Positions 29,461 to 31,919 of a stretch of 41,003 nt of DNA are shown piece after piece. The stretch is from Phenylobacterium sp. Its GTDB lineage: Bacteria > Pseudomonadota > Alphaproteobacteria > Caulobacterales > Caulobacteraceae. How positions within the stretch are numbered: the stretch's first letter is position 1; the number at the start of each line of letters is the position of its first letter. Position numbers and translations under genes: made by a program. The notes beneath the pieces are model-generated. The model was given only the letters and a program-made list of their open reading frames with translations. It did not search any database and was not told the DNA's origin. The stretch spans positions 1 to 41,003 of the forward strand of contig NZ_JAEUMN010000018.1 of NCBI RefSeq assembly GCF_016793225.1. The letters run 5' to 3'.

Positions 29461-31005
29461 TCAGCCGACCTTGAAGCGCTTGGCAGGCTTCGTCCAGTTG
29501 GCGCGGACGGCCCAGCGCGTGAGCGCCCCGCGCAGCGCGTCGGGCGACAGCGGCTTGACCAGGAAGTCGTTCATGCCCGCCGCCAGGCACGCCCGGCGGT
29601 CGTCCTCGAAGGCGTTGGCGGTCAGCGCCACGATGGGGGTGTCGATGCCCGCCTCGCGCAGCCGACGAGCGGTCTCCTCGCCCGAAAGCACCGGCATGCG
29701 CATGTCCATGAGGATCAGGTCGTAGACCTCCACATCCGCGGCCTTCAGCGCCTCGGGGCCGCTGACCACGTGCTCCACGTGGCAGCCCTCCCGGGTCAGC
29801 AGCGTGCGGGCCAGGAGCGCGTTGATGGGGTTGTCCTCCACCAGCAGCACGCGCGCGCCGGGGGCGGCGGCCGTCACGATCCGCTCGTCCTCGGGCTCGG
29901 GCGCCGCCAGCGGCGTCGCGCCCGCCGCGATCAGCACGCGCTCGGCCAGCGAGGCGCGGCGCAGCGGCTTGATGAGGTAGCCCGCGAAGCCGGAGCGGCG
30001 GTAGCGGGTGATGCGGTCGCGCTCGTCGGGCGCGAGGAGCACGATGCCCTTGCGCTGCAGCGGCGGCCTCAGCGCGCCGCTGGGCGACGCCAGGCTCGCA
30101 TCCACCAGGATCACGTCGCCGGGGCGCGTGCGCGCGATGGCGGCCGGCAGGGCGTCGGCGACGATCGCCTCGCCGCCGCTGGCCTCGATCTGCCGGCGCG
30201 CGGCTTCACGGACGATCCCGCTGGGCGACGCCACGGCGACCCTTCGGCCGGCGAGCGGGCCGTGCGTACGTGCGGCCGCGCGTGGCGTCGGGAAGGCCGC
30301 CTCGAACCAGAAGGCCGCGCCGCCGCCGGCGGCGGCTTCGACACCCACCTCGCCGCCCATGGCGCGCGCGATCCGCCGCGCGATGGCGAGCCCAAGGCCC
30401 GAGCCGCCGAGGTCGGCGTGCGCGTTGTCCGCCTGGGCGAAGGCTTCGAAGATCCGGTCGCGGTCGGACTCCGACACGCCGGGGCCGGTGTCGGCGACGG
30501 TGAAGCGCACCACGCCGGGCGCCGACGACTCGGCGGTGATGAGGACGCCCCCCGCCTCGGTGAACTTGACGGCGTTGCCGGCGAAGTTGAGCAGGATCTG
30601 GCGGAGCCGGCTCTCGTCCGCATGGATCGTCGCCGGCGCGGCCGGAGCGGCCCAGGCGATCTCGAGGTCCTTCTCGCGGGCGCGCGGCGAGAGCAGTTCG
30701 GCGACGCTCTGCAGCAGCGATTCCAGGTCGGTCTCGGCCGGGTGCAGCTCGACGCGGCCGGCGCCCAGCTTGGCGAAGTCCAGCACGTCGTTGACCAGCG
30801 TCAGCAGGTGCTGGCCGCTGTCGCGCAGCGCGGCGACATAGGTCTGCTGTTCGGCGGTGAGCCGGGTGCCTTCCAGGAGGCGCGCCATGCCCAGCACGCC
30901 GTTGAGCGGCGTCCGGAATTCGTGGCTCAGCGACGCGAGTTGTTCGGCGCTGATCTGGGCGCGCGCCGGCCGGCGCTCTGAGAGGGAACGTACGGGTCTG
31001 CGCAT
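29461..31005 (-). CDS. Soluble hybrid histidine kinase with two receiver domains
   Basis: A 514-residue protein with no membrane helix and no visible sensor domain. The DHp helix with H28 (SHEFRTPLNG) begins almost at the N-terminus. The ATPase domain follows: NFAGNAVKFTE (N box), DTGPGVSESD (G1), GGSGLGLAIA (G2). A first receiver-like domain lacks the acidic pair (VAVASPSG) but keeps VILVDAS and IKPL. A canonical receiver ends the protein: LLVEDNPINA, D434 in LMDMRMP, T462, K484 in VKPL. The ATG at 31005 is chosen; the frame is open to 31116. It is divergent from the LuxR-type gene at 31167. Confidence 0.88.
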   Translation of the reverse strand: MRRPVRSLSERRPARAQISAEQLASLSHEFRTPLNGVLGMARLLEGTRLTAEQQTYVAALRDSGQHLLTLVNDVLDFAKLGAGRVELHPAETDLESLLQSVAELLSPRAREKDLEIAWAAPAAPATIHADESRLRQILLNFAGNAVKFTEAGGVLITAESSAPGVVRFTVADTGPGVSESDRDRIFEAFAQADNAHADLGGSGLGLAIARRIARAMGGEVGVEAAAGGGAAFWFEAAFPTPRAAARTHGPLAGRRVAVASPSGIVREAARRQIEASGGEAIVADALPAAIARTRPGDVILVDASLASPSGALRPPLQRKGIVLLAPDERDRITRYRRSGFAGYLIKPLRRASLAERVLIAAGATPLAAPEPEDERIVTAAAPGARVLLVEDNPINALLARTLLTREGCHVEHVVSGPEALKAADVEVYDLILMDMRMPVLSGEETARRLREAGIDTPIVALTANAFEDDRRACLAAGMNDFLVKPLSPDALRGALTRWAVRANWTKPAKRFKVG

Positions 31006-31166: not shown

Positions 31167-31919
31167 ATGAACCCGGTCGAGCTATTGACGCAGCGGGAGC
31201 GGGACTGCCTTCGACTGGTCGACCAGCATCTCAGCTCCAAGCAGATCGCGCGTGAACTTGGGATGTCGAAGACGTCGGTCGACACCTATTGTGACCGCGC
31301 GCGCCGCAAGCTCGGCGTGGACGACCGCTTCCAGGCGGCCCGGCTGCTGCGCCAGCAGGGCGACGGTTCTGTCCTGATCGGATCAGGACACGACGCGATC
31401 AGGACAGACACGGTTAATGCAAGCTGGCCGGATGACCTCGCAACGGAGGAGGCATCCAATGGGCGAGTGGCCGAGTTTCGAGAACAGAGCGGTGATTGGC
31501 AGGGCGCTCCGCCTTCGCCGGGAGATCGACGACTTCGAAGCGCGTTGGCCGGCCTTGGCGAAGAGGGAGGAACTCCTCCCGGGCTTCTCCTGGACGCAGC
31601 TCGAGCGGCAGCTCGTCGATCTCTCGGCGACGCCGGCTCAGGCGGACATGGCGCGGCACCTGGTTTCCGCCACGCGGAAGCTGGCCCCGTTCAAGCCGCC
31701 CGAGATGGTGCTGCGGGAGATCCTCTGCCTCACCTGGGTTCTCCTGGACGAGAACTTCAAGGGCGAGTCGGAGCCTGGACCCGCAGAAATGACCTGAGCC
31801 CGACCGCGCGGATCGCGGCGATCCTCGTAATCGCCGTCGTCACGGTCCTCGCCTTCGGGGGCATGCTGGCGGGGCTCCACGCCCTCAACGATCTGGCGGC
31901 GAATTTACTAAAGGCCTGA
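31167..31919 (+). CDS. LuxR-type HTH regulator with C-terminal membrane helix (interrupted frame)
   Basis: A continuous 250-codon frame. Residues 1-66 are a LuxR/GerE-type HTH (LLTQRERDCLRLVDQHLSSKQIARELG, then RRKLGV). Residues about 206-250 are RNDLSPTARIAAIL followed by one membrane helix, a tail I recall from membrane-tethered LuxR-type proteins of Caulobacterales and Sphingomonadales. GAGGGGAG precedes the ATG. The middle (about 68-205) looks non-coding in this frame: mixed third-base use and no resemblance to a protein. The same DNA carries an operator-like repeat (31370-31406) and another gene (31459-31797) in a different frame. Either an inserted cassette stayed in frame, or the true product differs. 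Confidence 0.6.
   Translation: MNPVELLTQRERDCLRLVDQHLSSKQIARELGMSKTSVDTYCDRARRKLGVDDRFQAARLLRQQGDGSVLIGSGHDAIRTDTVNASWPDDLATEEASNGRVAEFREQSGDWQGAPPSPGDRRLRSALAGLGEEGGTPPGLLLDAARAAARRSLGDAGSGGHGAAPGFRHAEAGPVQAARDGAAGDPLPHLGSPGRELQGRVGAWTRRNDLSPTARIAAILVIAVVTVLAFGGMLAGLHALNDLAANLLKA
31370..31406. promoter_or_regulatory. Operator-like repeat: palindrome plus third half-site
   Basis: TGTCCTGATC and GATCAGGACA form a perfect 10-bp inverted repeat with one base between (31370-31390). A third identical half, GATCAGGACA, follows at 31397-31406. It begins right after the HTH-coding part and lies 52 bp before the ATG at 31459. Clustered half-sites suggest binding by a dimeric regulator, possibly the adjacent HTH protein. 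Function is inferred. Confidence 0.55.
31459..31797 (+). CDS. Hypothetical 112-residue protein nested in the LuxR-type gene
   Basis: The ATG is preceded by GGAGGAGG at a good distance, one of the strongest ribosome binding sites in the window. About 15 of 112 codons end in A or T, a third-base pattern typical of genes here; the overlapping regulator frame lacks it. The protein is charged and mostly helical: RALRLRREIDDFEARWPALAKREELLP, WTQLERQLVDLS, then MVLREILCLTWVLLDENFKG. It has no signal, no membrane helix and no family I recognise. It lies wholly inside 31167-31919 in another frame. A -1 shift near its end would join it to the membrane tail, which is an alternative reading. Confidence 0.65.
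   Translation: MGEWPSFENRAVIGRALRLRREIDDFEARWPALAKREELLPGFSWTQLERQLVDLSATPAQADMARHLVSATRKLAPFKPPEMVLREILCLTWVLLDENFKGESEPGPAEMT

Follow-up and report, generated by a model that had tools for sequence, protein, structure and literature searches.

Long genes nested on the same strand within another gene are, to our knowledge, few in bacterial chromosomes. In the Rz and Rz1 spanin genes of phage lambda, as presented in PMC6139136, one gene lies wholly inside the other in the +1 frame, both are kept, and the two products act together. In Bacillus subtilis, according to PMC12915044, comS encodes a small regulatory protein in a distinct frame inside a bacterial host gene, srfAB. The window analysed here, a whole stretch of 41,003 nucleotides from Phenylobacterium sp., contains a regulator gene, the host, with a second reading frame nested in its linker (Table 1). 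Both reading frames are present as the initial annotation had described them, with a 112-codon gene inside the regulator, and they recur in 70 loci of the genus, the host spanning the nested frame in 68 of these. Sequence comparison identifies a genuine nested pair of same-strand genes, and an old one. In Phenylobacterium, Caulobacter and relatives, the same piece of DNA appears to encode two proteins in two frames, and the pair appears to have been kept across much of the family.

Table 1. Positions of the host gene, the nested gene and associated features in the window.
Feature	Coordinates	Strand	Remarks
Host gene	31167-31919	+	GerE/LuxR-type HTH, linker, C-terminal membrane helix; 250 aa
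GerE HTH domain, host codons 6-60	31182-31346	+	PF00196, 53.6 bits vs cut-off 23.5
Conserved DNA/RNA element TGTCCTGA-N5-TCAGGACA and direct copy ATCAGGACAGAC	31370-31409	+	inside host codons 68-81; 70 Phenylobacterium loci aligned
Shine-Dalgarno GGAGGAGG of nested gene	31445-31452	+	6 bases upstream of ATG 31459
Nested gene	31459-31797	+	frame +1 relative to host; 112-aa helical protein, orphan family
Host C-terminal tail with membrane helix	31797-31916	+	shares one base with nested stop
D1 downstream gene, 121 aa	31988-32353	+	no Pfam family above cut-off
D2 downstream gene, 142 aa	32416-32844	+	hydrophobic stretches by eye; no Pfam family above cut-off

The explanation that we prefer, at a probability of about 0.86, is that two proteins arise from one stretch of mRNA through two independent starts, the nested gene lying in the host linker and having been added to a probably older HTH-TM/D1/D2 module. 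Translation from 31167 would yield a tail-anchored GerE-type regulator with a cytoplasmic HTH, a long low-complexity linker and one C-terminal membrane helix, and a second start at 31459, preceded by a strong Shine-Dalgarno site inside the same mRNA, would yield, in the +1 frame, a protein that is helical and probably soluble. The segment linking HTH and membrane helix would be selected as the nested gene, the host requiring of its linker only that it be stop-free and long enough to connect the two ends of the protein. The nested gene would have been gained within the lineage of the Caulobacteraceae, through either insertion or overprinting, and both products are presumably made in cells.

The pair is widely distributed. 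In 149 genomes searched at E 0.001, the host query matched 111, many of these matches reaching only the common HTH, and the nested query matched 72. A profile of the nested family matched 216 of 390 Caulobacteraceae genomes and 9 of the 22 genera sampled, the named relatives among the matches being mostly Phenylobacterium with some Caulobacter. Among the matches listed, 166 loci were read, comprising 70 genus orthologues, 5 genus paralogues and 91 others. An inner frame conserved inside an outer frame at a fixed offset, the mark of an embedded gene, was found in 158 of the 166 loci: an HTH host spans the nested frame in 68/70 genus orthologues, 5/5 genus paralogues and 85/91 of the rest, and the offset is +1 in all 158. 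There are eight exceptions. In L234, L235 and L289 a nested-type gene is present and an HTH host was not found; in L240 and L275 the host frame is broken in an indel-like manner; L279 has a host-frame stop upstream of the nested start; L101 is truncated by a contig end; and in L100 (identical to L185, genome G032) the HTH and the nested domain share one reading frame, with the tail in another. The arrangement in L100 may be a natural fusion or an indel. In L021 there is a TAG within the nested frame and the host is open. A short conserved cysteine-containing reading frame (LKRLICRHQ.WWSERR.AE.CYRCG) follows the nested-type genes of both L234 and L235. In the class-level sample the nested family was found in 2 of 385 genomes, both Caulobacteraceae, and because at most 12 candidates per genome were scored, distant relatives may have been missed. 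An order-level nested match (G142, E 1.5e-4; L109) was not confirmed by the family profile and was not counted, and two further candidates (L107, L110) had no nested match and were excluded from the loci. A search for plasmid-borne copies found none.

Since the GerE HTH scores above its curated cut-off (PF00196, 53.6 bits), the host classes with the GerE/LuxR-type HTH regulators, from which it departs in having the HTH at the N-terminus and a membrane helix at the other end. Neither an autoinducer-binding nor a receiver domain appeared among its 15 Pfam matches up to E 1, and the lack of an autoinducer-binding domain among these matches sets the host apart from quorum-sensing LuxR receptors. 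The tail lies in the host frame in 68/70 genus loci, the exceptions being L100 (other frame) and L101 (cut), and in 38 spanning loci it contains a 19-residue stretch with a mean hydropathy of 1.95 to 3.18. Third-position G/C in the host frame is 0.864 in codons 1-66, 0.468 inside the overlap and 0.875 in the tail, and in the nested frame it is 0.866, in line with the roughly 87% and the coding-like host ends recorded in the initial annotation. A divergent histidine kinase/receiver gene (about 29461-31005, minus strand) adjoins the host in 68/70 Phenylobacterium loci and in 1/96 others.

The nested frame encodes 112 residues from the ATG at 31459, or 126 from an in-frame ATG at 31417. A ribosome binding site of its own, as first proposed from the window, is a feature of the family: a Shine-Dalgarno energy of -6 kcal/mol or lower precedes a start in the nested frame in 110/119 loci, in the host frame in 24/119 and in the third frame in 8/119, the value being the best over all starts in the region, which favours frames with more starts, and the set omitting six exceptions and the final 41 loci. 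A Shine-Dalgarno site is present in only 24.6% of C. crescentus genes, according to PMC4117421. The nested protein was assigned to no confident Pfam or NCBIfam family, with weak matches only, the most recurrent of which occurred in 4 of 34 members, and eight PDB sequence matches to the family were all weak, five of them to designed repeat proteins. An AlphaFold2 model from 26 aligned sequences predicts helices at residues 6-29, 45-55, 59-78 and 81-96, with a mean pLDDT of 79.2, values above 90 in the core and a pTM of 0.51; a PDB fold search with this model returned nothing at E 0.001 or better. The nested protein is probably helical and soluble. We favour a role in the cytoplasm as a partner dedicated to the regulator, such as an antagonist or co-regulator, whose co-expression with the regulator would be fixed by the linkage of the two genes.

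Selection acts differently on the two frames. As a null model, synonymous codons were shuffled within each nested gene, leaving the protein and its codon use unchanged. In 67 Phenylobacterium loci the overlap contains 0 host-frame stops, as against 119 after shuffling. Across all 166 loci, including the eight exceptions and counting within the profile-matching part of the nested frame, none is seen where 205.1 would be expected, and the third frame of this overlap has 431 for an expected 396.2. With one locus per 70%-identity cluster (31 loci from 119), there are 0 host-frame stops against 34.1 expected. At the codon level, 0 of 3134 nested codons followed by AA, AG or GA end in T, compared with 980 of 11311 elsewhere. 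Control stretches of the same loci, counted in the like frame, are mildly depleted in stops as well, at 0.73 to 0.85 of expectation (D1, 135 vs 158.6; D2, 85 vs 114.5; HTH, 76 vs 103.7). The complete lack of stops in the overlap, set against this mild depletion, therefore argues that the host frame is kept open.

Substitution rates were compared by site class, the published approach to overlapping frames, with simplified counting of our own on pairs of moderate divergence from 67 loci; dSN/dSS, with 3 sites per pair, was left unused. The nested gene has a dNN/dSN of 0.209 (CI 0.15-0.28), which indicates the purifying selection expected of an embedded gene, and the HTH and tail of the host give 0.116 and 0.289. 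For the host frame in the overlap dNN/dNS is 1.245 (CI 1.01-1.56), consistent with no amino-acid constraint. Non-coding control frames gave 0.83 (third frame of the overlap), 0.95 and 1.17 (HTH) and 1.44 and 0.65 (tail). Because the host value falls within this control range of 0.65-1.44, it is openness and not residue conservation that supports host translation, and the outer frame is likely read through the overlap on this indirect evidence. Conservation of the regulator frame through codons 68-205 had been named in advance as an observation that would count against the nested gene; the frame is indeed conserved in its openness, and its amino acids are not.

Between the HTH and the nested start, the Phenylobacterium loci carry a palindrome (31371-31389) of 9-base arms around one base, with a third half-site beside it. 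Within 2 mismatches of the 16 arm bases the element is present in 66/70 genus loci, the remaining four being at 3 or 4 mismatches and the element being degraded in L100. None of the 96 other loci has it within 2 mismatches, and one has it at 3 or 4. One arm pair, over the 70 loci, is T-A in 54, C-G in 14 and C-A in 2. Codons that are rare in the HTH part are fixed in the element: Arg is AGG in 68/70 loci against 7/728 Arg codons of the HTH part, and Thr is ACA in 69/70 against 7/227. The element thus looks selected at the nucleic-acid level, as either an operator or an RNA stem. The region 31355-31475 has an RNA fold z of -4.48, and the nested Shine-Dalgarno is paired in the model for the window. 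A function as operator of a wider regulon was rejected, since the 17-base core has a single match at up to 2 mismatches in the 4.6-Mb genome and the element occurs in 0/96 non-orthologous loci within 2 mismatches. The operator suggested in the initial annotation is thus real as a DNA element, specific to the genus, and putative in its role. A variant of our explanation, which keeps both frames and has the nested gene expressed mainly from its own internal promoter with the palindrome as its operator, draws support from the symmetric changes in the arms and from the fixed rare codons. It is nevertheless unlikely, given an element that is single in the genome and absent, within 2 mismatches, from the 96 other loci, and an RNA role would fit the same observations equally well.

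Programmed frameshifting offers another account, in which a +1 shift after the HTH would produce an HTH-nested fusion, or a -1 shift near the nested stop would append the membrane tail to the nested protein, the linker as read in the host frame then being non-functional. The single reading frame for HTH and nested domain in G032, and the conserved stem between HTH and nested start in Phenylobacterium, would suit such a mechanism. However, neither shift requires a stop-free host frame, which is what all 166 loci have in the overlap, so that the -1 shift raised in the initial annotation leaves this feature without a reason. Nested starts also carry a strong Shine-Dalgarno site in 110/119 loci, the element is confined to the genus at the threshold used, and in 54/70 genus loci it contains a TGA in the nested frame. 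We regard frameshifting as unnecessary and improbable.

More doubtful still is the view that the nested gene alone is real in the overlap, the long host reading frame having arisen by chance from high G+C, with HTH protein and tail made as separate products. The relaxed amino-acid sequence of the host linker would be expected on this view, and chance alone would leave about 51 of the 166 loci free of stops (115.1 expected with a stop). Yet no locus has a stop in the overlap, 158/166 have none between HTH and tail, and in nested-free homologues the HTH and the membrane helix share one reading frame. A tail restarted as a separate protein at the nested stop was rejected, as no conserved start codon is found there: the nested stops are a mixture of TGA (56), TAG (46) and TAA (17) in 119 loci, and the preceding base is C in 102/119, so that no host-frame start is kept. 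The indel-like breaks in L240 and L275 might be cited for an error of sequencing or assembly, in which an indel split or joined two ordinary adjacent genes. Such an error is excluded because the arrangement recurs across loci, with an identical offset in 158/166 and with the pair present in L008, L064 and L086 (isolates P. kunshanense BUT-10, P. deserti YIM 73061 and P. haematophilum DSM 21793).

Under the two-start explanation, the surroundings of the pair bear on its origin. In 148/166 loci D1 is found downstream in the same orientation, and D2 is present in 159/166, downstream on the same strand in 158 and elsewhere in the stretch in one. The D1 profile matched 6 of 289 genomes of the class, three of them Caulobacteraceae and three of one other family (f17), where D1 and D2 also travel with an HTH-TM regulator. 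Hosts without a nested gene were found in Caulobacteraceae (L108, two in tandem in G019; L334; L335; L364) and in f17 (L340/L359, L360, L361), the membrane helix of L360, L361 and L364 being judged by eye. D1 and D2 are both present on the same strand in L335, L364, L359, L360 and L361; L334 has D2 without D1, and L108 has only D2, on the opposite strand. In the frame +1 to the host, stops follow the HTH in L359 (6), L360 (4), L361 (5) and L364 (1). The tandem regulators of L108 (G019:C16) have linkers of 28 and 34 aa, and the same genome carries a nested pair. The genome of the window itself has a second D1-type gene (L362, G000:C118:8809-9081); in the surrounding stretch D2 is matched weakly and the HTH not at all.

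Linkers measure 28-89 aa in five nested-free hosts against 112-167 aa in 11 nested hosts, reading frames with the HTH beyond residue 120 being omitted. Shorter homologues lacking the segment, which the initial annotation had named as the sign of an insertion, do exist, with linkers of 28-50 aa within the family and 89 aa in one host outside it. Nested-free hosts that have a shorter linker and share the downstream genes occur both inside and outside the family, which argues that the nested gene was probably added later, and the HTH-TM/D1/D2 module is probably the older. The original proposal of a cassette inserted without breaking the host frame is largely supported by the second gene in an open linker and by the short homologues, although overprinting in place may account for the segment instead. 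The orphan status of the nested family in the searches made and the nested-free module in another family are what overprinting would leave, and insertion also fits; the segment may have originated in either way. In a nested-gene tree, which has few columns and is weak, the three nested-type genes that stand alone branch among those inside hosts. The HTH tree, also of few columns, does not separate short from nested hosts and places the short L108 near nested hosts; because some short hosts adjoin nested ones in this way, the nested gene may have been lost locally. We tentatively suggest, at somewhat less than even odds, a fuller history in which the nested family originated within, or entered, the linker of a tail-anchored regulator in the Caulobacteraceae ancestor, has resided there since, and was duplicated along with its host to give several paralogues, the linker being selected only for openness and the nested protein serving as a dedicated partner. 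On that history one gene would use the coding sequence of another as a spacer.

The pair has paralogues and nested-free relatives for comparison, and it separates the openness of a frame from the importance of its residues. The birth of a gene within a gene, and the cost of overlap, can thus be put to direct test in genera to which the model Caulobacter belongs. The arrangement further raises the possibility that annotation overlooks one of the two genes. A literature search, mostly at the level of bibliographic records, found no account of this nested pair. The embedded-gene kind is already known from Rz/Rz1 and comS/srfAB. Rz and Rz1 are a phage lysis pair of unrelated proteins with membrane signals, whereas the present pair joins a bacterial chromosomal regulator to an orphan protein encoded in its linker. 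The host of comS, set beside this pair by description only, is part of the operon for surfactin synthesis and does not encode a transcription regulator. What makes the Caulobacteraceae pair a new variant within this known kind is how deeply it is conserved, together with its orphan inner family and passive host linker.
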